Positions 694 to 61,544 of a stretch of 64,000 bases of DNA are shown here, piece after piece (the first letter of the stretch is position 1; each line of letters begins with the position of its first letter). The stretch is from Thiomicrospira sp. XS5 (GTDB taxonomy: Bacteria > Pseudomonadota > Gammaproteobacteria > Thiomicrospirales > Thiomicrospiraceae), in NCBI RefSeq assembly GCF_001507555.1, contig NZ_LQBO01000001.1, positions 1,426,001 to 1,490,000 of the forward strand. Reading direction: 5' to 3'. The position numbers were made by a program, and so were the translations under genes. A model generated the notes under the pieces. The model was not told where the DNA came from and did not search any database. It saw nothing but the letters and a program-made list of their open reading frames with translations.

Positions 694-707
694 GACCAGG
701 CCTGGTC
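694..707. repeat. Iterated palindrome copy (GACCAGGCCTGGTC)
   Basis: A perfect 14-bp palindrome in the gap between the divergent copper ATPase and nfeD genes, with A/T-rich flanks. It is one of 14 perfect CCAGGCCTGG copies in the window. The rest of the 560-842 gap shows no other gene. Confidence 0.8.
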
Positions 708-842
708 GAACGTGTTGTTTTTAAAATAAAAGTATTGAGGTTTACGGTTTCATTAGAAATTTTTACATAAGAAGCGTAAAGTAAAAGTCTCGGCACTTGT
801 GATGCACTCGACCGCTTTCGGTCATGGGGCAAAGGAGGCGCG

Positions 843-2243
843 ATGCAGCGGTTGGCAAAGTTCTATCGGTGGTTTTTACTGATGATGGCGCTGGTTCTGT
901 TGGTTCAGAGTCCTGCGCTGGCGGAGACGTCGGCAAAGTCCCAATCACCAGAAGTGATTCAACTGACGGTGAACGACGCCATCGGTCCGGCCACGGCGGA
1001 CTACATTGAACGTTCGTTGGCGAAGGCGGAGGCCCGGCGCGCCGAATTGGTGGTGTTGCGACTGGATACGCCCGGCGGTTTGAGTTCGTCGATGCGCGAC
1101 ATCATTAAGCACATTGCCGCGTCCAGCGTGCCGGTGGCGACGTTTGTCGCACCGTCCGGCGCGCGTGCGGCCAGTGCGGGCACCTATATTCTTTTCGCCA
1201 GCCCGGTGGCAGCCATGGCCCCCGGCACCAATCTCGGCGCCGCCACGCCGGTGCAAATCGGCGGCATTTCATTGCCGAAACCATCTCAAGACCCATCGGA
1301 AGAATCTTCAAAATCCAGTCAACCTCAAGACGCTGCCAAACGTAAAGCCGTCAATGATGCGGTGGCCTATATTCGCGGGTTGGCGGAACTACACGGGCGC
1401 AATGTCGACTGGGCGGAAAAAGCCGTTCGGGAGGCCGCCAGCTTGCCCGCACAGGAAGCTTTGGCGTTGAATGTTATCGACTTGATGGCCGACAACACCT
1501 GGGACTTGTTACAGCAACTTGACGGGCGTGAAGTGCAATTGAATCAGCGCCGGTTGGTGCTACGCACCGCCGGTGCGGAAGTAGTGGAGATGCCGCCGGA
1601 TTGGCGCAGTGAGTTGTTGAGTGTGCTCACCAATCCGAATGTGGCCTATATTCTCTTGCTGGTCGGGGTGTACGGCATTATTTTCGAATTTCTCAACCCG
1701 GGTGGCATTGTGCCGGGAACCATCGGCGCCATTGCCATCGTCTTGGCCTTGTATGCCTTTCAACTGCTGCCCATCAGTTATGCCGGCATGGCGCTGATTC
1801 TGCTCGGCATCGGTTTGATGGTGGCGGAAGCCTTTGAACCCAGTTTCGGCATTCTCGGCATCGGCGGGGTGGTGGCGTTTGTCATCGGTTCGATTATCTT
1901 GATGGACACCGATGCGCCGGGGTTCGGCATCGATTTGTCGGTCATCGTGACTTTTGCCGTGCTCAGTGTGTTGGTCGTGGCGGCGGTGGTGCATCTGGCG
2001 TTTAAATCCTATCGTCAGCCGGTGGTCAGCGGCTTGCAGGAATTGGTCGGTAGCGAAGCGGTGGTCTTGACGGATTTCGACGGCAAGGGGCAAGTCATCG
2101 TTCACGGCGAACATTGGCAAGCGGTGTCCGAGGTCCCTTTGAAACAGGATCAAACGGTTCGCGTGACGGGCATGAAACACCTGACATTGCAGGTCACGCC
2201 GATTGAAACGGATTCAGCCACAACAGAGGAGGCGACATCATGA
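843..2243 (+). CDS. nfeD: NfeD family membrane serine protease (ClpP-class)
   Basis: A 466-residue long-form NfeD. It has a signal peptide (about residues 1-27, ending ALA), a ClpP/SppA-like protease domain (about 38-230), four to five membrane helices (about 255-385) and a C-terminal OB-like NfeD domain. The probable catalytic serine is S111 in ARAASAGTY and the probable catalytic lysine is K168 in [12 protein letters not shown], matching the Ser-Lys dyad of the archaeal homologue PH1510. These proteases cleave stomatin-type partners, and the next gene is a slipin whose start overlaps this stop. The start follows AAAGGAGG. The physiological role in bacteria is not settled; membrane quality control is the usual suggestion. 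Confidence 0.9.
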
Positions 2244-2989
2244 CGGCTTATGCTTTATACATCGTACTGGCAGTGGTGCTGGTTTTTTTCGTCAGTGCCA
2301 TCCGTATCCTGCGCGAATATGAACGCGGGGTGATTTTTATGCTCGGGCGTTTCTGGAAAGTGAAAGGACCGGGGTTCATTTTAGTGATTCCAATCATCCA
2401 GCAAATGGAAAAGGTTGATTTACGGACGGTGGTGATGGACGTGCCGAGTCAGGACGTGATTTCGCGTGATAACGTGTCGGTGCATGTGAACGCGGTGGTG
2501 TATTTTCGGGTCATTGAACCGGATAAAGCCATTATTCAGGTCGAGCATTTCAACGATGCCATCAGCCAATTAGCGCAGACCACTTTGCGGTCGGTGCTGG
2601 GGCAGCATGAATTGGATGAAATGTTGTCGGAGCGGGATCGGTTGAACGCCGATATTCAGACGGTGCTGGATCAGCAAACCGATGCCTGGGGTGTGAAAGT
2701 CAGCAATGTGGAAATCAAGCACGTTGATTTGGATGAAAGTATGATTCGCGCCATCGCCAAACAGGCCGAAGCCGAGCGGACGCGACGCGCGAAAGTCATC
2801 CATGCGCAAGGGGAAATGCAGGCGTCGGAAAAACTGTTCGAAGCGGCGCAAATTCTTTCCAAACAGCCGCAGGCATTGCAATTACGTTATTTGCAGACCT
2901 TGACGGAAATCGCCAATGATCGTTCCAATACCATCGTGTTCCCGCTGCCGATGGAAATGGTGGATTCGCTGTTTAAACACGGTAAATAG
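2240..2989 (+). CDS. Slipin / stomatin-like SPFH protein
   Basis: 249 residues: one N-terminal membrane helix (about 4-22), then an SPFH domain starting at [14 protein letters not shown], with the family signatures GPGFILVIP and [33 protein letters not shown], followed by an alanine/glutamate-rich helical part ([15 protein letters not shown]). This is a bacterial slipin, expected to form membrane oligomers with the NfeD protease encoded just upstream. Its ATG overlaps the nfeD TGA (ATGA), so the two are translationally coupled. A perfect palindromic terminator follows 30 bp after the stop. Confidence 0.92.
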
Positions 2990-3019: not shown

Positions 3020-3043
3020 AAAACGCCCAGGCCTGGGCGTTTT
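3020..3043. terminator. Bidirectional terminator built on the iterated palindrome
   Basis: A perfect 24-bp palindrome whose half is AAAACGCCCAGG. It lies between the convergent slipin and proton-ATPase genes, gives a GC stem with a T-run on either strand, and touches the TGA stop of the ATPase. The same 24 bp recur at 60696-60719. Confidence 0.85.
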
Positions 3044-5765: not shown

Positions 5766-5779
5766 GAATCCAATGATAT

Positions 5780-8359: not shown

Positions 8360-11300
8360 ATGGCCGATTCCATCCAATTCAACGATAAACCGTCGATTAT
8401 CAAGGCGCTTGAGCAAACCTTGTCGAAAGACCGGTTTGCCTTGAAGCGGCAATTGGATCGCTTCAAACTCGATTCGGACGCGGCTGTCGAGGCGTTGCAG
8501 GATGATTCGGCCTGGCAAAAATTTCAGGCCCGTTTGACGGCGTCGGTGCAGGCGGTGGCCGCCAACCGGCAAGCGGTGCCGCAAATCACCTATGACACCT
8601 TGCCGGTGGCGGAACGCCGTGAGGAGATTCGGAATCTCATTCAAAACCACCAGGTGGTGGTGATTGCCGGGGAAACCGGGTCGGGGAAAACCACCCAGAT
8701 TCCGAAAATCTGTCTCGAAGCGGGGCGTGGTATTTTCGGCCGAATCGGCTGTACTCAGCCAAGACGTTTGGCGGCGCGCAGCGTGGCGGAGCGGATTGCC
8801 GAAGAACTCGGCTCCAAACTGGGTGAGCTGGTCGGGTACCAGGTGCGGTTTCACGACCAGGTCCATCAACAAAGTTTGTTGAAGGTGATGACCGACGGGA
8901 TTCTACTGGCGGAAGTCCAGAAGGACCCATTTTTGAATCAGTACGACACCATCATCATCGACGAAGCGCATGAGCGCTCCATCAACATCGATTTCTTGCT
9001 CGGCATTTTGAAAAAACTGCTGCCGAAGCGCCCGGATTTGAAACTCATCATCACGTCCGCCACCATCGACACCGAACGCTTTGCGCAATTTTTTGAGGGT
9101 GCGCCGATTATCGAGGTCAGCGGGCGAACCTATCCGGTGGAAGTCCGCTACAACCCTTTGGTGAAAATCGAAGACGACGACGGTAACGAGTTCGAACAGG
9201 ACATTCCCACCGCCATCGGTTATGCGTTGGACGAACTGGCGGAAATCGACCCGTTCGGCGATGTGCTGGTGTTTCAGGTCGGTGAACGCGATATTAAGGA
9301 AACCGCGGAATACTTGCGCAAACAGCATTTGAAAAACACCGAAATCGTGCCCTTGTACGCGCGTTTGAGCATGGCGGAGCAAAACAAGGTGTTCCAGCTG
9401 TCGCAAAAACGGCGGGTGATTTTATCGACCAATGTGGCGGAAACGTCTTTGACGGTGCCGGGCATCAAGTTCGTGATTGACCCAGGCCTGGTCAGAATCA
9501 GCCGTTATTCGGTGCGCTCCAAGGTGCTGCGTTTGCCGATTGAGAAAATCTCCCAGGCCTCGGCCAATCAACGGGCGGGGCGTTGCGGCCGTGTCAGCTC
9601 TGGGGTGTGCATCCGTTTGTACGACGAAGACGATTTCAACAGTCGTCCGGCGTTTACACCGCCGGAAATTCACCGCACTTCACTCGCGACGGTGATTTTG
9701 CAGATGACGCAAATGAAACTTGGGGCGGTGAAACATTTTCCGTTTATCGAACCGCCGGAAGATAAAGCGGTGAATGACGGTTATCGTCAATTGCACGAAA
9801 TCGGCGCGTTGGACGAAAACCGCCGCTTGACCGACAGTGGTCGTCAGCTGGCCAAACTGCCGCTGGACCCGCGGATGGCGAAGATGGTGCTGGAAGGGCA
9901 GAAGAACGGTGTCTTGGCCGAAGTGCTGGTGATTGCCTCGGCCATCAGCATTCAAGACCCGCGCGATATGAACGAAGCCAATCGTCAGGCAGCCAACCAG
10001 GCGCATAAGCCGTTTGACGACCCGCGTTCCGACTTTCTGTTCTTTCTCAATCTGTGGCGTTTTTACGAAGACAAACGCCGTCATTTGAGCCAAAACAAAC
10101 TGCGGAAACTTTGCAAAACCAATTTCCTGTCCTATCTGCGAATGAAAGAATGGCACGACTTGTTTTTCCAGTTGGAAATGAGCTTGAAGCGCATTGGCGT
10201 GAAAGTCGGTGATCTGCACCTGTATGAAGAAGTGAAGCAGGGCAAGACGGTCACCGAACGTTTGTCGGACATGCATTCGATGGCGGTGCACCGTTCTTTG
10301 ATGGCCGGGTTGTTGGGCAATATCGCCATGCGCGACGACGAAAATACCTATTTGGGCGCGCGTAGCACCAAATTGTTTATCCACCCGAGTTCGGTGTTGT
10401 TCAAGCGTAAACCGAAATGGATGCTGTCCGGCGAGCTGGTGGAAACCTCGAAGCTCTATGCCCGTAACAATGCCGTCATTGATATCAACTGGGTGGAAGC
10501 GCTGGCGCCGCACTTGGTCAAACGCAGTTACACCGATCCGCACTGGCAGAAAAAGGCCGGGCAAGTCGGGGCGTTTGAATCGGTGACGTTATACGGGTTG
10601 TCGATTGTGAATCGGCGACGCTGCAATTACGGGCCGATTAATCCCAAAGAAGCTCATAAGATTTTCCTGCGACACGCGCTGGTGGAAGGGGAAATGCACA
10701 GTCGGGTGGCGTTTCTGGCGCATAACCGCCGTTTGATTGATGAGATTCACGACATTGAATCCAAACTGCGGCGCCCCGATTTTCTGGTGGAAGAGGATGT
10801 GCTGTATGAGTTCTATCAGGCGCGGATTCCCGAACACATTTACAGCCAACCGGCGTTCGAAAAATGGGTCAAGAAAACCGAACAGCAGGCCCCGGAAACG
10901 ATTGACGCTTTGAAACTGACGCGTGATTTTCTGCTCAAACAGTCGGTGGACGCCGGGTTGGCGGTGGAATACCCCGACCAGGTTCAGATCAAGAATCAAC
11001 TGGAACTCGATGTCGATTACCATTTTGAACCGGGCAAACAGCAAGATGGCCTGGTGGTGAAAGTGCCGTTATCGGCATTGAACCTGGTGCAAAAGTCCGA
11101 TTTCGATTGGCTGACGCCGGGTTTGTTGAAAGAAAAAACCGCTTTCTACATCAAGGCCTTGCCGAAACAACTTCGAAAACAGTTTATTCCGGCGCCGCAG
11201 ACCGCAGAAGTGGTGTTGCAGGAAATGTTACCGACGAAAAAGCTGGACGGGCATACGGCGGATTACGTTACCCAGTTGGTGTGGGCGCTGAATCGTCGTG

Positions 11301-12361
11301 GTCAGCAGAAGGTGTCGAGCGCGGATTTTGAAAACGCCGGTCTGCCGGAGGCCTTGCCGGAACACTTGCAACCCTATTTCGTCTTGCAGGACGATAAGGG
11401 CAAAACCATTGCCGAGAAGGCCGATCTGGAAGCCCTGAAAACCGAGTATCAACATTTGGTGGACGACCGCATTCAGAAACATCAGGCCAAAACCGCGACC
11501 GACAGCCAAAGGGTGGAGGAATGGAACTTCGGCGATTTGGCGCCTTCTCAAACCATTCGTACCAAAGGGGTGGAAATGGTCGCGTATCCCGCTTTGCGCT
11601 GCCGACCGGAGGCGGAAGGCGACATCATCGAACTGGATTTGGTCGGGGATGAGGAAACCGCATTGGCCGAACATGGCGAAGCGGTGCGGGCCTTGTTGGC
11701 GTTGAATCTGCCGGATAAGGTCAAGTATTTGCAGAAGAAGTTGCCGATGCAAAAAGCCTGTTTATGCTATGCGCCTTACGGTACGTGCGAAGCCTTGACG
11801 CAACAAGTCATCGACCGGGCCTTGCGTCAATTGGTGCCGGAACCGGAAACCATCCGCACCCAGGCGGCTTACGAGCAGACGCTGGAAACGGTGCGCTCGA
11901 AATGGATTGAAACCGCGCAAGGGATTGCCAAGCAGGTTAACGATATTCTCACCGGGCATCAGAAAATTGCCAAGCAGGTCAAAGGCAAGGTGAACCCGCG
12001 CTGGCTGGCGTCCGTGGCGGACATCCGTGCCCAACTGGATGCCTTGATTGATAAAGATTTCGTGCGAACCACGCCGGAAACCTGGTTCCGTCAAATGCCG
12101 CGGTATTTGCAAGGGCTGGAAAAACGCTTGGAAAAAATCGACATCGACCCGACCAAAGACCAAAAGGCCATCCGCGAAATGCAACCGGTGTTGGAAGCCT
12201 ATGAACGTCTGGCGCAGGATGCAGCCTACCGGAATCACCCAGGCCTGGTGGAAATGCGTTGGCTGCTGGAAGAGTTGCGCTTATCCTTGTTTGCCCAACC
12301 GATGAAAACCGTCAAGCCGGTATCGGTGCAACGTCTGCTTAAGCAGTTGAAAAAAATATAA
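8360..12361 (+). CDS. hrpA: ATP-dependent RNA helicase HrpA (DEAH box)
   Basis: 1333 residues, close to the about 1300 of Escherichia coli HrpA. It carries Walker A GETGSGKTTQ (K110), DEAH (201-204), SAT (ITSATID), the motif V/VI elements STNVAETSLTVPGIKFVIDPG and QRAGRCGRV, then helicase-associated and OB domains and the long C-terminal region specific to HrpA. HrpA is a DEAH helicase acting on mRNA and on stalled or collided ribosomes. No clear Shine-Dalgarno sequence precedes the ATG. Two copies of the CCAGGCCTGG palindrome lie inside the coding sequence (9482 and 12239). Confidence 0.95.
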   Translation: MADSIQFNDKPSIIKALEQTLSKDRFALKRQLDRFKLDSDAAVEALQDDSAWQKFQARLTASVQAVAANRQAVPQITYDTLPVAERREEIRNLIQNHQVVVIAGETGSGKTTQIPKICLEAGRGIFGRIGCTQPRRLAARSVAERIAEELGSKLGELVGYQVRFHDQVHQQSLLKVMTDGILLAEVQKDPFLNQYDTIIIDEAHERSINIDFLLGILKKLLPKRPDLKLIITSATIDTERFAQFFEGAPIIEVSGRTYPVEVRYNPLVKIEDDDGNEFEQDIPTAIGYALDELAEIDPFGDVLVFQVGERDIKETAEYLRKQHLKNTEIVPLYARLSMAEQNKVFQLSQKRRVILSTNVAETSLTVPGIKFVIDPGLVRISRYSVRSKVLRLPIEKISQASANQRAGRCGRVSSGVCIRLYDEDDFNSRPAFTPPEIHRTSLATVILQMTQMKLGAVKHFPFIEPPEDKAVNDGYRQLHEIGALDENRRLTDSGRQLAKLPLDPRMAKMVLEGQKNGVLAEVLVIASAISIQDPRDMNEANRQAANQAHKPFDDPRSDFLFFLNLWRFYEDKRRHLSQNKLRKLCKTNFLSYLRMKEWHDLFFQLEMSLKRIGVKVGDLHLYEEVKQGKTVTERLSDMHSMAVHRSLMAGLLGNIAMRDDENTYLGARSTKLFIHPSSVLFKRKPKWMLSGELVETSKLYARNNAVIDINWVEALAPHLVKRSYTDPHWQKKAGQVGAFESVTLYGLSIVNRRRCNYGPINPKEAHKIFLRHALVEGEMHSRVAFLAHNRRLIDEIHDIESKLRRPDFLVEEDVLYEFYQARIPEHIYSQPAFEKWVKKTEQQAPETIDALKLTRDFLLKQSVDAGLAVEYPDQVQIKNQLELDVDYHFEPGKQQDGLVVKVPLSALNLVQKSDFDWLTPGLLKEKTAFYIKALPKQLRKQFIPAPQTAEVVLQEMLPTKKLDGHTADYVTQLVWALNRRGQQKVSSADFENAGLPEALPEHLQPYFVLQDDKGKTIAEKADLEALKTEYQHLVDDRIQKHQAKTATDSQRVEEWNFGDLAPSQTIRTKGVEMVAYPALRCRPEAEGDIIELDLVGDEETALAEHGEAVRALLALNLPDKVKYLQKKLPMQKACLCYAPYGTCEALTQQVIDRALRQLVPEPETIRTQAAYEQTLETVRSKWIETAQGIAKQVNDILTGHQKIAKQVKGKVNPRWLASVADIRAQLDALIDKDFVRTTPETWFRQMPRYLQGLEKRLEKIDIDPTKDQKAIREMQPVLEAYERLAQDAAYRNHPGLVEMRWLLEELRLSLFAQPMKTVKPVSVQRLLKQLKKI

Positions 12362-13789: not shown

Positions 13790-13812
13790 AAAAACCCCAG
13801 GCCTGGTGGATT
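13790..13812 (+). terminator. Terminator-like iterated palindrome copy
   Basis: A run of A, then CCCCAGGCCTGG, then GGATTTT, after the diguanylate cyclase stop. The core CCAGGCCTGG is at 13797-13806. The flanking A and T runs would support termination on either strand. Confidence 0.55.
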
Positions 13813-15045: not shown

Positions 15046-15070
15046 AAAGCCCGGCCTTGCCGGGCTTTTT
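15046..15070. terminator. Bidirectional terminator between lipoprotein and PLP-enzyme genes
   Basis: AAAGCCCGGC and GCCGGGCTTT pair around a 3-nt loop, with T-runs on both strands, between convergent genes. Confidence 0.85.
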
Positions 15071-16007
15071 ACGTTTTCGGGTTTCCTTGCAGGCCGCCGG
15101 AGTGGTATAGCACCACTTTCGAGCCACTTGGGAGTCGGCCGGATTGCAGTTCTTGCAGAAAACCGTACACCAGTTTGTTGGTGTACACCGAATCCAATGG
15201 AATGTGAAACTGGCTTTCAAACCAGTGTCGCGCCACCTCGATGTCGGGGGCGGTTTGACCGTATCCCGGGCCGCAATAGTCGGTCAGTAAGTGCCAGTTA
15301 GGCGAACCGGCGGCATTATGAGAGACTCCGCTGAAGGCTTCGATGCTTGGAATCAGGTAGTCGGCTTGTTTTAAACTGGCGATGCCTAAAACAAGGCGTT
15401 GAGGCTTCGGTGTGGCAAATTTCACCAGGCCTGCCAGGGTGCCACCGGTGCCGACGGCGGTGAAAAGGTGGCTCCAATTCGGACATTGGGATTCAATCGT
15501 CTGGCTGAGGGTTTGAAAACCCTGTACGGCGGCTTGGTTGGTGCCGCCTTCGGGCAAAATATAAGCCGCCGGGTGCTTGGTTGATAGTGTGTCCAGAAAA
15601 TCCGATTGGGTTTTTAGCCGGTAATCCGCGCGGGACAAAAAGTGCAGTTGCATGCCGTTTTGTTGTGCAGTGTGGAGGGTTTGGTTCCAACGCTCCGGTC
15701 GGTCGGCTAATTCATCGCCGCGGATGTAACCGATGGTTTGGAACCCGAAGGCCTGACCGGCCGCCGCCGTGGCGGCGATGTGATTGGAATAGGCACCGCC
15801 AAAGGTCAATAAAGTCGATTTTCCGGCTGCTTTGGCGGCTTCCAGGTTAAGTTTCAGTTTATGCCACTTGTTGCCTTGGATGGCTGGGTGGTTGAGATCG
15901 TCGCGTTTCATCCACACGTCGATGCCGTGGTCGGCAAAAAGCGGATGTTCTAAAGCCATCATGGGACTGTCGTTTGTACGGTTGTTGGGCATTAAGGTGT
16001 GAGGCAT
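15069..16007 (-). CDS. PLP-dependent ACC-deaminase / D-cysteine desulfhydrase family enzyme
   Basis: 312 residues from ATG 16007; the frame extends upstream but that part is not family-like. The fold-type II signatures are seen: VWMKRDDLNHPAIQGNKWHKLKLNL, where the lysine of NKWHK would bind PLP, FGGAYSNHIAATAAAG, AVGTGGTLAGL for phosphate binding, and LPEGGTNQAAVQG. Members deaminate 1-aminocyclopropane-1-carboxylate or release sulfide from D-cysteine. The sequence alone does not decide which, and desulfhydrase-like activity is the commoner case in gammaproteobacteria. The C-terminus (YHSGGLQGNP) is complete. It is divergent from amtB with 191 bp between them. Confidence 0.82.
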   Translation of the reverse strand: MPHTLMPNNRTNDSPMMALEHPLFADHGIDVWMKRDDLNHPAIQGNKWHKLKLNLEAAKAAGKSTLLTFGGAYSNHIAATAAAGQAFGFQTIGYIRGDELADRPERWNQTLHTAQQNGMQLHFLSRADYRLKTQSDFLDTLSTKHPAAYILPEGGTNQAAVQGFQTLSQTIESQCPNWSHLFTAVGTGGTLAGLVKFATPKPQRLVLGIASLKQADYLIPSIEAFSGVSHNAAGSPNWHLLTDYCGPGYGQTAPDIEVARHWFESQFHIPLDSVYTNKLVYGFLQELQSGRLPSGSKVVLYHSGGLQGNPKT

Positions 16008-16198
16008 GTGACTATGATACCGCACTGTGGTTTGCGAAAGGGCCGAAGAATAGCGGTCATAAAGCCAGAGGTGATGAGGCCATAAAGGGTTTCTTTTTCC
16101 TGTCACAGAAGTTTTGGTAAAATACGCCCAAAATTTATAACGATTTTTACATATAAGAAAATACATATAAGAAAAACATATCAACAGGGACGAAAGAA

Positions 16199-17416
16199 AT
16201 GGAACAATTGACCACAAGTTTGGATGTGCTGTTCATTTTGCTGGGGGCGATTCTGGTGCTGTTCATGCACGCCGGGTTTGCCTTTTTGGAAGTGGGAACG
16301 GTTCAACATAAAAATCAGGTAAACGCGCTGGTGAAAATCATGACCGATTTGGGCGTATCGACCGTGGCGTATTTTTTCATCGGCTACGGAGTCGCTTACG
16401 GCGTGTTTCTGGGCTTTAACCTGGATGGTCAATTGACCCAGGCGATGACCGACAAATCCGGTTACGAGCTGGTGAAATTCTTCTTTCTCATGACCTTTGC
16501 GGCGGCGATTCCGGCCATTGTCTCCGGCGGGATTGCCGAGCGCGCCCGTTTCTATCCGGTCCTGTTGGCGACCTTTTTGACGGTGGCGTTCATTTATCCG
16601 TTGTTTGAAGGCATGGCGTGGAACGGTAACTTCGGCTTCCAGGCCTGGTTGGAATCGTCCTATGGCGCGCCTTTCCATGATTTTGCCGGTTCCATTGTCG
16701 TTCATGCGGTGGGCGGCTGGATTGCCTTGGCGGCGATTTTGATTCTCGGTGCCCGTCATAACCGATACAACGCCCAAGGCAAAATGCAACACGTTTATCC
16801 GCCGTCCAGTATTCCGTTTTTGGCGTTGGGCGCCTGGATTCTGTCGGTCGGCTGGTTCGGCTTTAATGTGATGTCGGCGCAAGCCGTCGAAGGCATTCAG
16901 GGCTTGGTGGCGATGAACTCTCTGATGGCGATGGTCGGCGGTATTTTGGCGGCGACGGTTATGGGCGATAAAGACCCGGGCTTTATTCATAACGGGCCTT
17001 TGGCCGGTTTGGTTGCCATCTGCGCCGGTTCTGACGTGGTCAGCCCGTTGGGCGCGTTGGTCATCGGTTTGGTGGCCGGGGCTTTGTTTGTAAAGGCCTT
17101 TACCTGGACACAAAAAAACCTGAAAGTGGACGATGTGTTGGGTGTTTGGCCGTTGCACGGTTTGTGCGGTGTCTGGGGTGCGATTGCGGTGGGTATTTTC
17201 GGCAGCACCGCCTTGGGCGGTCTGGGCGGCGTGGCCATGATGTCGCAAATTCTCGGCGCGTTGGCCGGTGTGGGCGTGGCGCTGATTGGCGGCTTCATTG
17301 TGTACTGGCTGGTCAATAAGTTGATGGCGTTGCGCATGAGCGATGAAGACCAATATCAAGGTGCGGATTTGTCGATTCATAAAATCCACGCCAACCCACC
17401 ACGAGAAGAGTTTTAA
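16199..17416 (+). CDS. amtB: Ammonium transporter (Amt family)
   Basis: 405 residues with 11 predicted membrane helices and no cleaved signal. Amt signatures include AFLEVGTVQHKNQVNALVKIMTDLG, FEGMAWNG, FAGSIVVHAVGGWIALAAILILGAR, the WFGFNVMSAQ region and the GVWPLHGLCGVWGAIAVGIFG block, which carry the twin pore histidines (HAVGG and HGLCG). It moves ammonium or ammonia across the inner membrane. No glnK is next to it, which is unusual for bacterial amtB. GGGA precedes the start. It carries one CCAGGCCTGG copy at 16639. Confidence 0.93.
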   Translation: MEQLTTSLDVLFILLGAILVLFMHAGFAFLEVGTVQHKNQVNALVKIMTDLGVSTVAYFFIGYGVAYGVFLGFNLDGQLTQAMTDKSGYELVKFFFLMTFAAAIPAIVSGGIAERARFYPVLLATFLTVAFIYPLFEGMAWNGNFGFQAWLESSYGAPFHDFAGSIVVHAVGGWIALAAILILGARHNRYNAQGKMQHVYPPSSIPFLALGAWILSVGWFGFNVMSAQAVEGIQGLVAMNSLMAMVGGILAATVMGDKDPGFIHNGPLAGLVAICAGSDVVSPLGALVIGLVAGALFVKAFTWTQKNLKVDDVLGVWPLHGLCGVWGAIAVGIFGSTALGGLGGVAMMSQILGALAGVGVALIGGFIVYWLVNKLMALRMSDEDQYQGADLSIHKIHANPPREEF

Positions 17417-20573: not shown

Positions 20574-23054
20574 ATGTTTCGTTACTTCGTACTGGGTTTT
20601 ATCTGCTGTGTCTATGCCTTTTATCAGCTTGGGACCTTTCCGAGTGGCTGGTCGCTTGTCTGGCTATGTGCGGGATTGGTGTTTGGTTGGGCGCTCTTTC
20701 GATTCGCACGGTTGAAACAACCGGTCAATCACGTCCTTATAGCGGTTATCAGCCCTATTATTATAGGCCTTCTTTTTGGCTATATCTGGGTATTTTTACA
20801 TTCTTTTTTGACAGATAGGTTACCAAGTGCGATTTATTTTAAGCCGGTTACCGTCGTTGGAAAAGTGGTTGACTTGCCGCAGGTGAATGCGCTGACCGAA
20901 AAGGGGCAAGTTTCCCGTGTGAAGTTTCTGTTTGAACTGCAACGCCTGACGGAGGAAAGCTCTAAATTTGACCAGGTCTGGTCGTTTTGGCAACCGACGG
21001 TTCAGTTGAGTTGGTATGACGCCGAAGCCGTGCCGAAAAGCGGTGAGGTCTGGCGTTTTCAAATTAAGTTAAAACCACGCCATGCCAGCCTGAATCCGGG
21101 GGCTTTCGATTACGAAACCTATCTATTCCAAAAAGGCGTGCAAGGCTATGGTTATGTGCTGGATAAAGGCGTCGCGCCGGTCCGACTGTCCGAGGCCGGT
21201 GTTTTCGGGTTGCGCAATGAGCTGGCGGATCATCTGCAGCGGCTGTTCGCCGAGTCCCCGTTTCAAGGGGTGTTTCAGGCGCTGATAGACGGCGATAAAA
21301 GCGATATCGGGGCTGAAGATTGGCGCATAATGCAACGCACCGGCACGATCCATTTGATGGCGATTTCCGGTTTGCATATCGCCATTATCGCCGGTTTGGG
21401 ATTTTCCTTGTTCGGTTGGATCTGGCGTTGGGGAATTCGTTGGACGAATTGGGCGTGGTGGTGGCACACGCCGAAAATCGTTTTTGCCAGTTGGGGTGGT
21501 ATTTTGACGGCCACACTCTATATGGCGATGGCCGGTTTTTCGATTCCGACGCAGCGCGCCTGGATGATGGTGGTGACAGTGCTGTTGTTCGTGTTGATTC
21601 GCCGAAAATTCCAGCCTTGGTCGGCGTTGGCACTCGCGGCGTTTTTGATTGTGCTGTGGCATCCGCCGTCGGTGTTGAGTCAGGGGTTCTGGTTATCCTT
21701 CACCGCAGTGGCGATTATTTTTGCCGTGTTGCGTTGGCCGACGGTGCAACGGGCGCCAGGCTGGCAAAAGCTGCTGTGGATTCAACTGGGGCTGACCGTC
21801 GGGTTGGCGCCGGCATTGGGCGGGTATTATCACCAGATCGCTTTGGGCAGCTTTCTAGCCAATTTGCTGGCGGTGCCGTTTGTGAGTTTATTGGGGCTGC
21901 CATTGTTGTTTTTGACCGTGTTGGTCAGCTTTGTATCCGATACCGCAGCGCATGGGCTGATGTGGTTGAACGACCAGTTTTGGAGCGGATTATGGTGGGG
22001 GCTGAAATTCATCTCCAATCGGTTGGGATTTTGGGTGGTCGGTCAGCTTCAGGTCTGGCAAATCGTGTTGTTATACGCGGTATTGTTCTGGACGGTCGGC
22101 GTGCGAATTTCCGACGAACAGCGGCACAAATGGTTGGGTGGTGTGCTTTTGGTGGGACTGACGGTGGTTTTTTTGTGGCATCCGTTCAAACCGGTGTTGG
22201 CACCGGGCGAATTTCGAGTGACGGTGTTGGACGTCGGGCAAGGGCAGGCGCTGGTGTTTGAAACGGAAACCGCCACTGTGGTGTATGATACCGGCGCGCG
22301 TTGGAGTGACAAAATGGACGGCGCGAAACTGGCGCTGTTACCCTATTTGAAATCGCAAAACCGTTCGACGGTGGAGCTGTTGATTGTCAGCCATTCCGAT
22401 TCGGACCATGCCGGCGGCGTGGCATCGTTATTGCAAGATGTGGCCGTAAAAGAAGCGGTGTCCGGCCAAGCGAAGGTGTTGAATGAAACACTGGAACAGG
22501 CGGTGTTTCAACCTTGCCGAAACGGCCAGGCCTGGTCATTTTCCGGTGTGCGGTTTGACATTCTGGCGCCGGCCGATTCTTTGCCGCAGCCGACAAACGA
22601 TAACGATGCGTCCTGCGTGCTCCGGGTCAGCAATGGTGCGGGAACCGTCTTGGTGCCGGGGGATTTGACCAAGCGTATGGAAAAACCGCTGGTGGCGGCC
22701 TATGAGGATGAGTTGCAGGCGGATTTGCTGGTGGCCGGGCATCACGGCAGCCGTACGTCGACGTCCCAGGCCTGGTTAAACGCGGTGTCACCGCAGGAAG
22801 TGGTGTTTTCCAGTGGTTTTGCCAATCGGTTTCATTTTCCAACCGAAACGGTGTTGAAGCGATTAGAGGCGCAGGGGATTCCCTGGCGAAATACTGCCTG
22901 TCGCGGCGCGATTCAGTATAAAATAACCCTCGATTCCGAACGGATTCACCCGTCGTCTTTGCGCTTTGTGAACAGCGCACGGCAAGCACGTCCGCGTTGG
23001 TATGCCAACGAATGCGAGGCATTTGCCGAAACGCGTGATAAAGCCGGGCAGTAA
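20574..23054 (+). CDS. comEC: DNA internalisation protein ComEC/Rec2
   Basis: 826 residues. It has N-terminal membrane helices and a periplasmic OB-like part (DUF4131, about 75-190), the Competence domain with many helices (about 230-510, MAISGLHIAIIAGLGFSLFGW), and a C-terminal metallo-beta-lactamase domain (TVLDVGQGQALVFET, SHSDSDHAGG, AGHHGSRTS). ComEC forms the inner-membrane channel that takes up single-stranded DNA during transformation. Two perfect CCAGGCCTGG copies (22526, 22766) and one variant CCAGGTCTGG (20972) lie in the gene. The usual neighbour msbA is absent; lpxK follows after an inserted mobile element. No clear ribosome site is visible at ATG 20574. Confidence 0.93.
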   Translation: MFRYFVLGFICCVYAFYQLGTFPSGWSLVWLCAGLVFGWALFRFARLKQPVNHVLIAVISPIIIGLLFGYIWVFLHSFLTDRLPSAIYFKPVTVVGKVVDLPQVNALTEKGQVSRVKFLFELQRLTEESSKFDQVWSFWQPTVQLSWYDAEAVPKSGEVWRFQIKLKPRHASLNPGAFDYETYLFQKGVQGYGYVLDKGVAPVRLSEAGVFGLRNELADHLQRLFAESPFQGVFQALIDGDKSDIGAEDWRIMQRTGTIHLMAISGLHIAIIAGLGFSLFGWIWRWGIRWTNWAWWWHTPKIVFASWGGILTATLYMAMAGFSIPTQRAWMMVVTVLLFVLIRRKFQPWSALALAAFLIVLWHPPSVLSQGFWLSFTAVAIIFAVLRWPTVQRAPGWQKLLWIQLGLTVGLAPALGGYYHQIALGSFLANLLAVPFVSLLGLPLLFLTVLVSFVSDTAAHGLMWLNDQFWSGLWWGLKFISNRLGFWVVGQLQVWQIVLLYAVLFWTVGVRISDEQRHKWLGGVLLVGLTVVFLWHPFKPVLAPGEFRVTVLDVGQGQALVFETETATVVYDTGARWSDKMDGAKLALLPYLKSQNRSTVELLIVSHSDSDHAGGVASLLQDVAVKEAVSGQAKVLNETLEQAVFQPCRNGQAWSFSGVRFDILAPADSLPQPTNDNDASCVLRVSNGAGTVLVPGDLTKRMEKPLVAAYEDELQADLLVAGHHGSRTSTSQAWLNAVSPQEVVFSSGFANRFHFPTETVLKRLEAQGIPWRNTACRGAIQYKITLDSERIHPSSLRFVNSARQARPRWYANECEAFAETRDKAGQ

Positions 23055-25701: not shown

Positions 25702-26574
25702 TTAGTTGGAACCCTTCAGCCCATAGGCAACTCGGGCCTTGTCCAATGTTTGGCACACCTCCGGTAAGGCATTGATAAAACGCGCCGTCGGGCGTTGTAA
25801 CCAATCGCTGACCATCGGGTAAACTTGATGTTTCTCAACGGCGGTCAGGCCTGGGACTTTTTGCCAGGCCTGCTGCCAGAGCGTTTGTTTTTCCGGGTAA
25901 CCGCCCAGCAGAATCACCTGCGGGTCGGCTTTCAAAATACTTTCCAAACTCACTTCGCCCGACAGACTGGCCAGGTCTCCAAACACATTGCGGCCATGAC
26001 AAAGCGCCATTCCCTGACTGATAAACTGATCACGATTGATCGTGATGTAGGGTTTGGCCCAAATCTGGTAGAAGACGCGAATTTCCGGCGCATTTTGATA
26101 GCGTGATTTCAGTGTGGCCAGGGTCTGTTCCAACGCCTGCGCGGCGAGGTTTGCCCGTGATTCGGTTCCGGCGCGTTGACCAATGGCGCGGATTTGGTGG
26201 GGAATATCGGCCAGGCGATGGGTGTCGGTTGTCCAGACGTTCAGGCCCAGTTGTTTCAGCTTGTCTAAATCTTTCATGCGATTGCCGGACTGCCAGGCCA
26301 AAATCAGGTCCGGCTTGAGGGCGACGATTTTTTCGATGTTCAAATGGGCGAAGTTTCCGACCGACGGCCGTGTTTTGGCGGCGTCGGGGTAGTCGGAATA
26401 GTCGATGACACCGACCAGCTTGTCACCGGCACCGGCGCTATAAACCTGCTCTGTCAAATGCGGTGCCAACGAGATAATGCGTTGTGCACCGTCAGCCGCC
26501 GAAACGGCCCCGGCCTGACCATAAATCAGAAAGCCGAACAGCAGTGGAATCCAGCTCATGTGCCGCGAAAGCAT
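25702..26574 (-). CDS. btuF: Periplasmic cobalamin-binding protein, BtuF-like
   Basis: 290 residues with a signal peptide (about 1-27, cut near AVSAADG) and a class III substrate-binding fold: RIISLAPHLTEQVYSAGAGDKLVGVIDYSDYP, LNIEKIVALKPDLILAWQSGN, FYQIWAKPYITINRDQFISQ and DPQVILLGGYPE. It should deliver cobalamin or a corrinoid to an inner-membrane importer. Its ATG overlaps the cobO stop (TGATG). btuC and btuD are not next to it. An internal ATG at 26559 would shorten the signal. Two CAGGCCTG cores lie 19 bp apart in the gene (25846, 25865). Confidence 0.85.
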   Translation of the reverse strand: MLSRHMSWIPLLFGFLIYGQAGAVSAADGAQRIISLAPHLTEQVYSAGAGDKLVGVIDYSDYPDAAKTRPSVGNFAHLNIEKIVALKPDLILAWQSGNRMKDLDKLKQLGLNVWTTDTHRLADIPHQIRAIGQRAGTESRANLAAQALEQTLATLKSRYQNAPEIRVFYQIWAKPYITINRDQFISQGMALCHGRNVFGDLASLSGEVSLESILKADPQVILLGGYPEKQTLWQQAWQKVPGLTAVEKHQVYPMVSDWLQRPTARFINALPEVCQTLDKARVAYGLKGSN

Positions 26575-31727: not shown

Positions 31728-31749
31728 AATGGCCAGGTCTGGCCGTTTT
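31728..31749. repeat. Iterated palindrome variant (CCAGGTCTGG) between two genes
   Basis: AAAAATGG-CCAGGTCTGG-CCGTTTTA lies in the 60-bp gap between the DsrE-like gene and the small membrane protein gene. The arms pair with one internal wobble and have A and T runs at the ends, so it could act as a terminator. Confidence 0.55.
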
Positions 31750-32477: not shown

Positions 32478-32716
32478 GGTCGAAAAAAGTTTGATTTCAA
32501 TGAGGCATAGTGTACCGAAAACGACTTTTGTTCGGAACGGTTTTTGAGTTTTTTAGAAGGCTGTACGGAAAGTCGCCAGGCCTGAACGGCGGTGTGGGCG
32601 CGGCTTCATACTCTTTGCACATTTATGTAACAATCGAAACCTATACTGATGATTCGAAATAATCGCGTAAAATACAACGATAACCCAATTCTTAAAATCA
32701 TTCGGAGAGAGAATAG

Positions 32717-36306: not shown

Positions 36307-36316
36307 CCAGGCCTGG
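36307..36316. repeat. Iterated palindrome copy upstream of prfC
   Basis: CCAGGCCTGG with an A/T-rich left flank (AAAAAATTA) and right flank CCGATTTGG, about 85 bp before the prfC start. Confidence 0.8.
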
Positions 36317-38081: not shown

Positions 38082-38091
38082 CCAGGCCTGG
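38082..38091. repeat. Iterated palindrome copy downstream of prfC
   Basis: AAAATGA-CCAGGCCTGG-TTATG, about 110 bp after the prfC stop. It may also be a weak terminator. The rest of 37975-38140 holds a small GGCATTGCG-type inverted repeat close to the prfC stop and no gene. Confidence 0.8.
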
Positions 38092-40576: not shown

Positions 40577-41299
40577 TTATTTGAAGTTTTCGCCCAGGTA
40601 AACGCGTTTCACCTCTGGGTTGGAGAGGATGTCGTGCGGTGCGCCTTGTGCGAGAATGGTGCCGGCGTGCAGGATGTATGCTTTGTCACAGACACCGAGG
40701 GTTTCGCGGACATTATGGTCGGTAATCAGGACGCCAATGCCTTTCATTTTGAGGTGCAAAATGATGGCTTGAATGTCTTTGACGGAAATCGGGTCGACAC
40801 CGGCAAAAGGTTCGTCCAGTAGGATGAAATTCGGTTCCATAGCCAAAGCACGGGCGATCTCTACCCGGCGGCGTTCCCCGCCGGACAAGGCTTGGCCGGG
40901 TTGGGTGGTGATGTGGCCGATTTGTAGATCGTCAATGAGGGATTCGTATTTCTGTTGTTTTTCATCGTGGCCCAGTTCCGAGCGCATTTCCAAAATGGCG
41001 AGAATGTTTTGTTCAACAGTGAGTTTTCGGAAAACGGATGCTTCTTGCGGCAGGTAACCAATGCCGAGCTTGGCCCGTTCGTCAATGGACAGTTGACTGA
41101 TTTCACGATCGCCGAGGTAGATGTCTCCCGCATCGTTTTTCACCAGGCCTGTCATCATGTAAAAGGTGGTGGTTTTGCCGGCACCGTTTGGGCCGAGAAG
41201 CCCAACCACTTGGCCGCTTTCAACATCCAGGTCCACCGAAGAAACGACTTTGCGGCGTTTATAACTTTTCGCTAGATTGCGTGCGTAGAAATGGGCCAT
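40577..41299 (-). CDS. lptB: LPS export ABC transporter ATPase LptB
   Basis: 240 residues: Walker [16 protein letters not shown]-loop, signature [19 protein letters not shown], Walker [15 protein letters not shown]-loop [11 protein letters not shown]. It has the LptB-specific start [29 protein letters not shown]. It powers LPS extraction from the inner membrane together with LptF and LptG, which are not in this window. Its ATG overlaps the lptA stop (TAATG). Confidence 0.97.
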
Positions 41300-43109: not shown

Positions 43110-44099
43110 TTAACCGTTAATCGTTCGAACGTACAGGAACACCATATAGGCGATAAAACTTGCTAACAGTATAAACCCTTCGACTTTCGTGATAACGGCT
43201 TTTCCTTTTCGCGGCAGCGCCACCAGTAGCATGGCGAGGGTAAGGGCGAGCATGATCGGGTAATCCAGCAAGAGCGTGGTGTTCTCGATGACGGACGGCG
43301 CGAGTAAGGCCGGCATCGACATGACGGCCAGCAGGTTGAAGAGGTTCGAGCCAAGAATGTTACCGATCATCAAATCGGCTTCACCTTTGCGTGCCGCGGT
43401 AATGGCCGCCGCCAACTCGGGTAGGCTGGTGCCGATGGCTACGATGGTTAGGCCGATAACCATTTCCGGAACCTTGAAGAACATCGCCACTTCCACGGCG
43501 CCCCAGACCATCATTTTGGCGCTAATCATCAAAACGACCAGGCCTGCTAAGAGATAAAACCAGGATTTACCGCTGCTGAGTTTGGGCATGTCTTCCAGTT
43601 CTTCGATGGTTTCTTGAGCTAATGGATCCGAAGGGGAGACATTTTTATTGGCGCGAATCATCCAGGTCATGACAATCAGCAATAGGGTTAAGAGGATGAA
43701 ACCGTCAGTGATGTCTAGGTCTTTATCCAGCATGAGCAGAATGCCAATGAGGGAAATGGCCAGCAACATCGGGAATTCGCGTTTTAATAGAGACGATTTG
43801 ATGACAATCGGCGACACCATCGCGGTAACCCCTAAAACCAAACCGATATTGGCGATATTGGAGCCGACCACATTACCGATTGCTAAGCTGGGGCTGTTGT
43901 CTACGGAAGCAAGAATGGCGACGAGAATTTCGGGCGCGGAGGTACCAAACCCCAGTACGACAACACCGATAATCAACGGCGATATGTTCATGTGTACCGC
44001 CGTACTAGCAGCGCCATCAATAAAAATATCCGAGCTCCAAACGAGGAGGACCAGTCCAATTAGAAGGACAATTGATGGTAAAATAAGGCTGCTTATCAT
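43110..44099 (-). CDS. Calcium/sodium antiporter, YrbG-like
   Basis: 329 residues from ATG 44099; the frame extends to a TTG at 44135 but neither start has a clear ribosome site. Two homologous Na/Ca-exchanger repeats are seen: the first with GFGTSAPEILVAILAS, IGNVVGSNIANIGLVLG, the second with AIGTSLPELAAAITAARKGEADLMIGNILGSNLFNLL. It has ten or so membrane helices. The expected reaction is exchange of Ca2+ for Na+ or H+ at the inner membrane. It heads the kdsC-lpt run as in E. coli. Confidence 0.9.
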   Translation of the reverse strand: MISSLILPSIVLLIGLVLLVWSSDIFIDGAASTAVHMNISPLIIGVVVLGFGTSAPEILVAILASVDNSPSLAIGNVVGSNIANIGLVLGVTAMVSPIVIKSSLLKREFPMLLAISLIGILLMLDKDLDITDGFILLTLLLIVMTWMIRANKNVSPSDPLAQETIEELEDMPKLSSGKSWFYLLAGLVVLMISAKMMVWGAVEVAMFFKVPEMVIGLTIVAIGTSLPELAAAITAARKGEADLMIGNILGSNLFNLLAVMSMPALLAPSVIENTTLLLDYPIMLALTLAMLLVALPRKGKAVITKVEGFILLASFIAYMVFLYVRTING

Positions 44100-48040: not shown

Positions 48041-48967
48041 ATGTCAGCTGCCGCTGTTTCATTTCAAGCCGTTCAAAAGGATTATGGCTCACTGCAAGCG
48101 TTGAAAGGCGTTTCGTTTGATGTCAGGCCTGGTTGTTTTTTCGGTTTGTTGGGCCCGAATGGTGCCGGAAAATCGACGTTGATTAACAGTATGGCCGGCT
48201 TGGTCAAGCCTTCCGCCGGTCGAATTCTGGTGAATGGTTATGATGTGGAGAAAGAATACCGCCAAGCCCGCCGTTTTCTGGGCGTGGTACCGCAAGAGCT
48301 GATTTCCGATCCGTTTTTCACGATTCGCGAATTGCTGGACATTCAAAGCGGCTATTTCGGGTTGAAAAGCCGTGAGCAACGTCTTTGGGTTGACGAATTG
48401 CTGGATCGTCTGGCTTTGTCGGACAAGGCGAATGCCATCACCAATGAATTGTCGGGTGGTATGAAACGTCGCGTGTTGATTGCAATGGCGTTGGTACACC
48501 AACCACAGGTGTTGGTGTTGGATGAACCGACCGCGGGTGTAGATGTCGATTTGCGCCGAACGTTGTGGGACTTTACCAAGGAATTGCATCAAAAAGGTCA
48601 CACCATTATTTTGACCACACACTACTTGGAAGAAGCGGAAGCTTTGTGTGAGGAAGTGGCGATTGTTAAAGGCGGTGAGCTGAAAGCGTTGGAGACGACG
48701 GGTAAATTATTGTCGCGCCATAACTACCGCTATCTGCGCGTGGTGTTGGAGTCGCCTCAAAAAGTTGACGAGCAGCAATTGTCGGCGTTCTTGAAAGAAC
48801 GCTTTATTGAACAAGACGCGAATGGATTGATGTTCAAACTGGAAAAAGAAAAGCCTTTGAATCAGATGTTGAGTGCCTTGTCGGAAAGTCATTTGGCAGT
48901 GAAAGATTTGACCAGCCGCGACGCGACGCTGGAAGAGGTCTTTTTGGATTTGACGGGAGAGAAATAA
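48041..48967 (+). CDS. ABC-2 type exporter ATPase, YadG-like
   Basis: 308 residues, the same length as E. coli YadG. Walker A GPNGAGKSTLINSM, signature NELSGGMKRRVLIAMALVHQP, Walker B VLVLDEPTAGVDVDLRR, H-loop LTTHYLEEAEAL, and a C-terminal part rich in charged residues. It pairs with the permease that follows. The substrate is unknown; these pairs are often found between mlaB and ibaG outside the enterobacteria. A CAGGCCTGG with T-rich tail lies at 48124. Confidence 0.9.
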   Translation: MSAAAVSFQAVQKDYGSLQALKGVSFDVRPGCFFGLLGPNGAGKSTLINSMAGLVKPSAGRILVNGYDVEKEYRQARRFLGVVPQELISDPFFTIRELLDIQSGYFGLKSREQRLWVDELLDRLALSDKANAITNELSGGMKRRVLIAMALVHQPQVLVLDEPTAGVDVDLRRTLWDFTKELHQKGHTIILTTHYLEEAEALCEEVAIVKGGELKALETTGKLLSRHNYRYLRVVLESPQKVDEQQLSAFLKERFIEQDANGLMFKLEKEKPLNQMLSALSESHLAVKDLTSRDATLEEVFLDLTGEK

Positions 48968-53332: not shown

Positions 53333-53350
53333 TTCGTGTTCGATTCATAA

Positions 53351-53378
53351 AAAATGACCAGGCCTGGTCATTTTTTTT
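53351..53378. terminator. Terminator after hisD built on the iterated palindrome
   Basis: AAAAATGA-CCAGGCCTGG-TCATTTTT, a perfect palindrome with a T8 run on the plus strand, 20 bp after the hisD stop. Core at 53358-53367. Confidence 0.85.
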
Positions 53379-53419
53379 GTCCGCAATATACGCAACCGCT
53401 GGGTTGCAGGGGAGAAGCA

Positions 53420-54163: not shown

Positions 54164-54167
54164 CTAA

Positions 54168-54190
54168 AAACCGACTTGAATGGTCGGTTT
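54168..54190 (+). terminator. Terminator after the Nif3-like gene
   Basis: AAACCGAC and GTCGGTTT pair around a 7-nt loop, 5 bp after the stop. The remaining gap to petA is A/T-rich and contains TGGTAAAAT (54283-54291), a possible extended -10 element. Confidence 0.65.
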
Positions 54191-54414
54191 ATGAACAATT
54201 TTTTTTATGCCTATGATTAGTTTTATTTATAAAAATATTTTTAATGGTCATAAATAGATATTGATGTAAGGATTAATTTTGCTTTGGTAAAATAGCCAGC
54301 CGCTTTGATTATTTTTAAGGTTTATTCGGGCTTGCCACGGGCTTTGCCGCGAGAAAATTTAAAAATACGATCAACGTATAACGATTAAGAAAATGGACAA
54401 AAGAGGAAGTCTCT

Positions 54415-56258: not shown

Positions 56259-56259
56259 C

Positions 56260-56919: not shown

Positions 56920-56931
56920 TCGCTGTTTTCG

Positions 56932-56956
56932 AAAGCCCGCTTTGCGGGCTTTTTTG
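56932..56956 (+). terminator. Terminator of petABC
   Basis: AAAGCCCGC and GCGGGCTTT pair around TTT, with a T6 run, 13 bp after petC. Confidence 0.88.
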
Positions 56957-56973
56957 TTTAGGTGATGTCTGAA

Positions 56974-58347: not shown

Positions 58348-58440
58348 GCCACGTCTACGGAGTTTTACCCCGTTCTATTGCAGGGGATTTCATGTAGAAT
58401 AGCCCTATATCTTCCCAATCACGGCAGGTGATATCAGGCT

Positions 58441-60696: not shown

Positions 60697-60719
60697 AAAC
60701 GCCCAGGCCTGGGCGTTTT
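60696..60719. terminator. Bidirectional terminator identical to the one at 3020
   Basis: The same perfect 24-bp palindrome (half AAAACGCCCAGG) between the convergent hybrid kinase and inositol-phosphatase genes. Confidence 0.85.
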
Positions 60720-60725
60720 CAGTAT

Positions 60726-61544
60726 TTAGTTGGCGTGTTGATAATCCTGCAAGATTTGAAACCAGTCGTCGAATAGCGCCGGTGTGGTCGCGGCCACAGC
60801 GGAACGCTTGACCACTTCCGACACCAAAACGGTTTCGCCCGTCAAGGTAGCGCTTTTGCCGCCGGCTTCATTCAAAATCAGCCAGCCGGCGGCGTAATCC
60901 CAGATGTTTTGGGCGCCGTGGCAATAAAGTTGACCGCGTCCTGCGGCGACCCAACACCAGTCTAATGCCACGGAACCGATACTGCGCTGCGACGCATAAG
61001 GCGGTTTCAATACCAGCTCGGTTGACAACGGCGCCTGCAATCGTTTGAAATCGACGAGTCCGATGCACTTCTTCAATTCCGTTTTGGCGGTTTGCGCGAT
61101 AAGCGCGCGGTCGTTCAATTCCGCGCCTTGGCCTTTGCGTGCCGCAAACAGCTCGTCACGGTCCGGGTCGTACACCATGCCCAGTTTGACATCGCCCTGG
61201 ATGATCAAGGCCAGCGAGACGCTGTAAACCGGAATGTCGCTGGCGAAGTTGCTGGTGCCATCGACCGGGTCGAGAATCCAGCAACCGTTATCGGAGGCGA
61301 GGGCGTCTTTTTGCTCTTGAGCCGAAGATTCCTCGCCCAAAAAGGTGAATTGCGGCCAGTGTTCGTTCAGGAAGGCTTCGGTGGCTTTTTGCATTTCGGT
61401 ATCGGCTTCGGTCAATACCGAGCCGTCGGCTTTGGTGGACGCATCCACATGACGGAAACGCGGCAGTACTTCCTGCTGTGCAAGCTGCTTGATGCCGTTT
61501 TTCAGTGTTTGCCAGGCCTGGTCGTTTTCGAAAATAAAAGACAT
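60726..61544 (-). CDS. Inositol-monophosphatase family protein
   Basis: 272 residues. The metal-binding motifs of the IMPase superfamily are present: FLGEESSAQEQ, WILDPVDGTSNFASDIPVYSVSLAL, and near the C-terminus NIWDYAAGWLILNEAGG. The family includes SuhB, CysQ and other phosphatases. The sequence diverges from SuhB and this genome region gives no pathway hint, so substrate is left open. A CCAGGCCTGG copy with T-tail is at 61512. It begins 12 bp after the CorC-type gene. Confidence 0.88.
   Translation of the reverse strand: MSFIFENDQAWQTLKNGIKQLAQQEVLPRFRHVDASTKADGSVLTEADTEMQKATEAFLNEHWPQFTFLGEESSAQEQKDALASDNGCWILDPVDGTSNFASDIPVYSVSLALIIQGDVKLGMVYDPDRDELFAARKGQGAELNDRALIAQTAKTELKKCIGLVDFKRLQAPLSTELVLKPPYASQRSIGSVALDWCWVAAGRGQLYCHGAQNIWDYAAGWLILNEAGGKSATLTGETVLVSEVVKRSAVAATTPALFDDWFQILQDYQHAN

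Follow-up and report, generated by a model that had tools for sequence, protein, structure and literature searches.

The window analysed here, a stretch of 64,000 nucleotides from the gammaproteobacterium Thiomicrospira sp. XS5 (positions 1,426,001-1,490,000 of contig C1 of its genome, G000), contains many copies of a short palindrome, CCAGGCCTGG, which is the subject of this report. A preliminary description had listed 14 perfect copies, seven further sites with the CAGGCCTG core alone and two CCAGGTCTGG variants, and had proposed a DNA uptake sequence among other genome-wide signals. Each of the 14 perfect sites lies at the position given for it, against an expectation of 0.04, and none of 100 shuffles gets to this number; the CAGGCCTG core occurs 21 times (14 times within CCAGGCCTGG and seven times alone, all of the latter being present as listed; expectation 0.59), and both variants were found as well (expectation 0.07, with one shuffle getting to two). 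The statement that a T-run accompanies over half of the copies also holds: of the 21 window sites, 18 have an A/T triplet at the usual distance from the core, seven of them on both sides.

Half of the perfect copies (7/14) are intergenic, as had been described, when the site at 53358 is counted among them. These are 696..705 (+ strand, tract on the left); 3027..3036, between two gene ends, with tracts on both sides and terminator-like by inspection; 13797..13806 and 36307..36316 (the latter called intergenic), both with tracts on both sides; 38082..38091 (+, tract on the left); 53358..53367, 3′ of a hisD-like gene, with tracts on both sides and a 12-pair stem with a T tail; and 60703..60712, between two gene ends, with tracts on both sides and a stem of at least 10 pairs that is terminator-like on both strands. 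A mechanically called start at 53354 of an open reading frame (ORF) overlaps the CCAGGCCTGG copy at 53358; we infer that this start is too early and that the site is intergenic.

The remaining perfect copies lie in coding DNA: two within ORF 8360-12361, at 9482..9491 (+, tract on the left) and 12239..12248 (tracts on both sides); one at 16639..16648 in ORF 16199-17416, with the tract absent at the usual place; one at 27930..27939 (-, tract on the right) in ORF 27188-28687; one at 61512..61521 (-, tract on the right) in ORF 60726-61544; and two within a comEC-like gene (20574..23054, +), which matches the Pfam families Competence (PF03772), DUF4131 and Lactamase_B. Of the copies in this gene, 22526..22535 has tracts on both sides and 22766..22775 has none at the usual place; the gene also contains the CCAGGTCTGG variant 20972..20981, the other variant being 31733..31742. 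The sites with the core alone are 15426..15433 (+, tract on the left; ORF 15069-16217), 25846..25853 (-, tract on the right) and 25865..25872 (+, tract on the left), which have one A/T run in common and lie in ORF 25702-26574, 32577..32584 (called intergenic, tract absent at the usual place), 41144..41151 (+, tract on the left; ORF 40577-41299), 43539..43546 (+, tract on the left; ORF 43110-44135) and 48124..48131 (-, tract on the right; ORF 48041-48967). Three riboswitches were also recognised in the window at the Rfam gathering score, a cobalamin riboswitch (30895-31113, -) and two of the c-di-GMP-I family (35796-35870 and 38223-38306, both +), one of the latter two being of the GGC type.

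Abundance, layout and predicted terminator use

The enrichment extends to the whole genome (2,632,826 bases in 23 contigs), where CCAGGCCTGG occurs 677 times and the backwards-read control pattern is never found; the counts are therefore not the near-expected ones that, according to the preliminary description, would speak against a genome-wide signal. These hundreds of exact copies, about 3.9 kb apart, are far over expectation and spread across 28 sampled blocks, as those of an uptake sequence would be. The 103,628-base contig C2 was considered as a possible plasmid; it holds 26 copies against 28.7 expected, thus resembling host DNA, and this candidate was rejected.

The palindrome is indeed repeated, as first described; the true unit, however, is longer and asymmetric, with an A/T tract on one side. 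When the 131 coding CAGGCCTG sites are oriented, A/T occupies positions -8 to -5, Y -4, R -2 and C -1, followed by the core, whose last G is relaxed. The unit combines roughly 4 bases of A/T tract, a spacer of 3 bases (about Y-S-R) and the core CCAGGCCTGg. At the tract, these coding sites carry 0.4-0.9 bit of information, whereas the null does not exceed about 0.2. The same layout emerges from a test that uses no orientation: three A/T at the defined distance flank the core on one side or both in 117 of the 131 coding sites (24% at randomly chosen coding places) and on both in 35 (1.6%); the intergenic CAGGCCTG cores have tracts on both sides in 59 of 78 cases versus 5.5% at random. Among 209 sites of G000, the tract is one-sided in 99, two-sided in 94 and missing from the usual place in 16. 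A second, weaker A/T signal at -15 to -13 is clear in intergenic sites; in coding sites it barely reaches the limit of the null. The core end distal to the tract is relaxed, with 26 copies of CCAGGCCTGC and 21 of CCAGGCCTGA for about two expected apiece; the remaining one-letter neighbours occur at most five times for one to three expected, with the exception of CCAGACCTGG (10 copies, 1.3 expected).

Placement relative to genes was studied in a 564 kb sample of G000, formed by the window and further stretches and holding 156 perfect copies, with genes called by a heuristic based on ORFs and codon usage rather than by a gene finder: 83 of the copies are coding and 73 intergenic, and called genes make up about 85% of the DNA. 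Since most intergenic cores have tracts on both sides, they form A-stem-GGCC-stem-T hairpins; the core being palindromic, a single copy with two tracts can by itself make up a full terminator stem, in line with the surplus of copies between genes. Among four window copies that were folded, two give predicted stems of at least 10 pairs around GGCC (z -3.6 and -2.0), whereas the other two are not distinctive (z -0.4 and -1.6), and a simple terminator scan of positions 53000-64000 listed neither of the strong-stem copies in that stretch; its rule needs T after the stem, and here the T run pairs inside it.

Orthologous positions in relatives, whose comparison had been suggested as a check, hold the motif in part of the rows, both between and inside genes. 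Downstream of the hisD-like gene near murA, close to the place of the window copy at 53358, CAGGCCTG is present in 12 of 19 rows, Hydrogenovibrio SC-1 has CCAGACCTGG and six rows have no known form, while inside murA a silent GCAGGCCTGGT is common to 7 of 18 rows. At 8.2-8.3 kb from murA (15 rows), CAGGCCTG is found in seven, ACCCGGCCTGTTGAG in T. cannonii and in the DE12 genome, and none in six, including the window; the end of a radA-like gene is visible shortly ahead of this site in some rows, not in all.

These data bear on the idea that the motif is merely a repeated transcription terminator or an intergenic element resembling repetitive extragenic palindromes. The intergenic share of the copies, the two-tracted intergenic cores, the two strong stems and the copy conserved after hisD would all be accounted for; the 83 coding copies, carrying a one-sided tract, and the silent murA copy would not, the terminator scan did not list the two copies in its range, and the flanks outside the tract hold little information, which indicates that no longer element is being copied. 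As a full explanation it is contradicted by the coding copies, and it is the least likely of those weighed in this report. The best reading of the predicted stems is that the motif may additionally be used as a terminator stem, as a second use; occurrence in and between genes, with an intergenic excess and such stems, is what an uptake sequence would be expected to display.

Dialects within the family

The family set comprises 62 genomes of Hydrogenovibrio, Thiomicrospira, Thiomicrorhabdus and kin, and a search at the level of the order gives the identical 62. CCAGGCCTGG is present in at least 100 copies in 27 of them, in 15-44 copies in five and in 0-8 copies in 30; in a sample of 370 genomes of the class, the 365 lying outside the family have a maximum of 46 copies each. 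Other forms were sought by k-mer search in genome samples, followed by whole-genome counts. The samples revealed ACAGGCCGGGT, an altered core that replaces CCAGGCCTGG in some relatives, and the pattern CCAGGYTGGG, which amounts to 331, 371 and 403 copies in the whole genomes of G007, G008 and G012, respectively, and to at most 17 in the other 59; its form is CCAGGCTGGG in G007 and CCAGGTTGGG in G008 and G012. AACAGGCCGGGT occurs 24 times in 101 kb of G022 (0.03 expected), and ACCGGCCGGT 1025 times in G026, with at most 15 copies in the other 61 genomes; G047 has CAGGCCTG with TTCA, and G023 a similar relaxed form. In core-aligned sites of G007, G008, G012 and G022 (14, 21, 15 and 31 sites), the tract is about AAAA at an unchanged distance and the core is non-palindromic; the tract is weaker in G023, G047 and, most of all, G026. 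The core is palindromic in most motif-rich relatives.

No prominent motif was seen in the k-mer samples of G042 (75 kb), G051 (100 kb), G029, G030 and G050 (80 kb each) and G024 (101 kb), nor in the smaller ones of G004 (40 kb), G018 (13 kb) and G013 (14 kb, with much N), samples that leave room for rarer motifs; in G029, the long words of the k-mer list were present in only two of four stretches. Two further repeats were encountered: AATGGGGACTTA, found five times in 80 kb of G028 across all four stretches (L149-L152), may be another repeat or a dialect, and an array of some 17 tandem units in G008 (L025:8854-14230), repeating about every 318 bases and perhaps encoding a long repeat protein, crowded the k-mer list of that genome.

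The MurA sequences nearest to that of the window belong to Hydrogenovibrio sp. SC-1 and to a Piscirickettsiaceae genome, which points to a Hydrogenovibrio-like sulfur oxidiser as the host. A tree of 32 MurA rows shows a tendency for loci with the same form to cluster, as seen in the pair with CAGGCCGGG, in the palindrome-bearing loci of Hydrogenovibrio, among which the CCAGGTTGGG genome JE_KL2 also falls, and in several motif-poor groups. G007, G008 and G026 are missing from this tree, which is built on one protein; each motif count comes from a single locus, of 11-21 kb. Within these bounds, the dialects have a common layout and follow the family phylogeny, as the dialects of an uptake sequence would.

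The palindromic core, which contains GGCC, AGGCCT and two CCWGG sites, invites comparison with cyanobacterial HIP1, modelled through an orphan methyltransferase and mismatch repair (Elhai 2015, PMC4390886). A methyltransferase of the GGCC, AGGCCT or CCWGG type could make or keep such a palindrome, and the replacement of HIP1 by other palindromes in some cyanobacteria (PMC4390886) would find a counterpart in ACCGGCCGGT. A HIP1-type signal would be a palindromic word without orientation, whereas here the A/T tract is one-sided and the dialects of G007, G008, G012 and G022 are non-palindromic. The C5-methyltransferase family PF00145 lacks a match in 18 motif-rich genomes out of 27, G000 being one of them (N4 and N6 types were not searched), and outside the motif GGCC (5658 vs 7272) and CCAGG (993 vs 1250) are under-represented, though AGGCCT is somewhat over-represented (256 vs 202). 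The modification-linked alternatives of the preliminary description, HIP1-like or tied to Dcm and StuI sites, are thereby weakened; a methylation-linked palindrome was rejected as a full explanation on account of the non-palindromic dialects, the one-sided tract and the lack of a PF00145 match in G000, and is very improbable.

Foreign DNA and chromosomal placement

The positions of integrase genes were determined for 11 genomes of the genus, and 22 stretches around some of these genes were taken from seven motif-rich genomes. These author-chosen stretches, from which strong Xer-like matches and several weaker ones were omitted, hold 67 copies versus 85.5 expected (P 0.02; rounded sizes were used for G009, G010 and G011). 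Scarcity is concentrated in their low-GC halves, with 13 copies versus 42.8 expected (P 1e-7) and 54 versus 42.8 in the high-GC halves, a split that was decided once the maps had been seen and was set by GC rather than by the motif. Low GC by itself does not account for this, since, with the two integrase stretches set aside, G000 blocks in the quarter of lowest GC still have 2.3 copies per 10 kb versus 2.7-3.5 elsewhere. A largely low-GC stretch of 30.5 kb in G008, with portal and integrase genes, contains no copy of the home dialect versus 4.5 expected. As would be expected of an uptake sequence, the motif is therefore scarce in recently acquired DNA, judged from the integrase stretches and one empty prophage stretch, the neighbourhoods of C5-methyltransferase genes excepted. 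Motif-free low-GC stretches next to an integrase lie in L015 (G000, C1 800001-820000) and L201 (G014, C1 505877-525876); the positions of the flanking motifs nearly coincide in the two, so these islands are probably at corresponding places. GC is ordinary in five chromosomal gaps with few motifs (L174-L178).

By GC skew, the origin of G000 lies at around 0.45 Mb and its terminus at around 1.7 Mb. The one-sided sites have no preference for the leading strand (48/95), and no origin-to-terminus trend was found across the 28 blocks of 20 kb (rho 0.12, P 0.55), over which the copies are spread slightly more evenly than at random (variance 3.3, mean 5.5, lower-tail P 0.05). Two of the first 99 gaps are shorter than 500 bp, for 12% expected, and overall gap variation is marginally low (P 0.056).

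A rather even, genome-wide spread and a core with an A/T tract, which is a plausible protein site, are also what a site for a chromosome-architecture, segregation or recombination protein would offer, be it a nucleoid protein or a signal of the Chi or KOPS kind that varies from species to species. Many segregation sites show an origin-to-terminus trend, which is absent here, and polar signals would show a strand preference; a polar replication or recombination signal was rejected as a full explanation on these grounds. Scarcity in low-GC DNA next to integrases, dialects that differ inside a single genus and relatives whose samples show no motif also argue against such a site, which is unlikely.

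A candidate DNA uptake sequence and its relation to known systems

The observation is real and wider than the palindrome first noticed, and layout, dialects, placement and integrase-side scarcity fit a candidate DNA uptake sequence of a third family. Neisseriaceae and Pasteurellaceae are described as the only families known to have uptake specificity (Helsem 2025, PMC12616744), and in both the uptake sequences occur in terminators (TerminatorNet 2026, PMC13020248; Kingsford 2007, PMC1852404). The motif is probably the DNA uptake sequence of Thiomicrospira sp. XS5 and its family, doubling as a terminator stem: of the explanations put forward in the preliminary description, this one best fits the dispersed copies, the predicted terminator use, the dialects, the scarcity beside integrases and the lack of strand or origin-to-terminus bias. 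Its observed basis is the enrichment, layout, dialects, family limits, placement, integrase-side scarcity and a comEC gene. Binding, uptake, the receptor and co-evolution are predicted by analogy: a receptor belonging to the competence apparatus, probably one of the minor type IV pilins, would bind the core and sense the A/T tract; tagged DNA would be brought across the outer membrane and then enter via ComEC; recombination of the DNA taken up would enrich the tag genome-wide, as proposed from known systems; and in relatives receptor and tag would drift together into dialects, some palindromic and some not. It seems fairly likely, with somewhat less assurance, that free-living sulfur-oxidising gammaproteobacteria (Hydrogenovibrio, Thiomicrospira, Thiomicrorhabdus and kin) possess a third family of uptake sequences, one of separate evolutionary origin. 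It would count six forms to date, five with CAGGYYKG in common, the core next to the A/T tract being palindromic in some and non-palindromic in others.

ComEC was found in 56 of the 62 family genomes and in 26 of the 27 motif-rich ones, the exception being G035 (82% complete). Several observations weigh against the uptake proposal. ComEC is present also in genomes where no motif was seen; the ComP_DUS model of the Neisseria receptor (PF16732) is over the cut-off in 0/62 genomes, and GspH (PF12019) in just three (G040, G042 and G051, at L190, L191 and L192), each with at most three copies of the palindrome, hence no receptor was found; the minor pilin of motif-rich relatives may have diverged or been replaced. 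Of 82 coding sites with a one-sided tract, only 30 have motif and gene on the same strand (P 0.02), the 16 sites of G000 without a tract at the usual place do not conform to the layout, and the tract of the G026 form is weak. Ten stretches around C5-methyltransferase genes are undepleted, with 9 copies versus about 7.8 expected, and their use as a proxy for foreign DNA was dropped. The open-licence papers matched by natural transformation together with Hydrogenovibrio concern other subjects. The genomes of H. influenzae and N. meningitidis measure about 1.8 and 2.2 Mb. They contain 1,465 uptake signal sequences (USS) and 1,892 DNA uptake sequences (DUS), respectively (PMC7811141), more than the perfect copies in G000. 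A prepilin pattern devised for this analysis had no match in the sampled part of G000.

Among the open-licence papers listed, none presents the motif as an uptake sequence, none joins an uptake sequence with Thiomicrospira or the core with Thiomicro, and the paper on Hydrogenovibrio SP-41 and XCL-2 (PMC6501319) lacks the terms competence, natural transformation and uptake sequence. If the proposal is true, uptake specificity is not bound to mucosal bacteria, and the plan of a core plus an A/T tract arose twice in gammaproteobacteria; receptor and tag would have undergone several joint changes, and thanks to a palindromic core a single tag could double as a whole terminator. A third case among marine and hydrothermal sulfur oxidisers, with several dialects and with species in which no motif was seen, would be an independent replicate for the question of why uptake specificity evolves, by direct selection on binding or by exclusion of foreign DNA. 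The proposal predicts a receptor that could be found by matching pilin variants to dialects, and would offer a tag for transforming sulfur-oxidising autotrophs.

Among known systems, HIP1 and the alternative HIPs of cyanobacteria resemble the motif in being palindromic and genome-wide and in giving way to other palindromes in some relatives (PMC4390886); what sets the motif apart from them is its one-sided tract, its non-palindromic dialects and the lack of a C5-methyltransferase match in G000. The motif also differs, as had been noted, from the sequences of Neisseria and Pasteurellaceae. Like it, the DUS of Neisseriaceae have dialects of a few letters that follow phylogeny and are used in terminators (PMC3630211), and their patterns serve to detect foreign elements (PMC7371117); unlike it, they are unrelated in sequence, go with a receptor whose model finds no counterpart here, are described without flanking motifs (PMC1626085), where our motif has its A/T tract, and build stems from two inverted copies instead of one palindromic copy. 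The USS of Pasteurellaceae have another core, AAGTGCGGT, unrelated to CCAGGCCTGg; here one clear tract lies 3 bases from a 10-base core, a second being weak at best, the core is palindromic in most motif-rich relatives, copies are fewer, the family is another and the uptake role is predicted. The two have in common a short core with one-sided A/T segments, dispersed copies, terminator use and lineage-bound types (PMC1626085, PMC12616744, PMC7811141).

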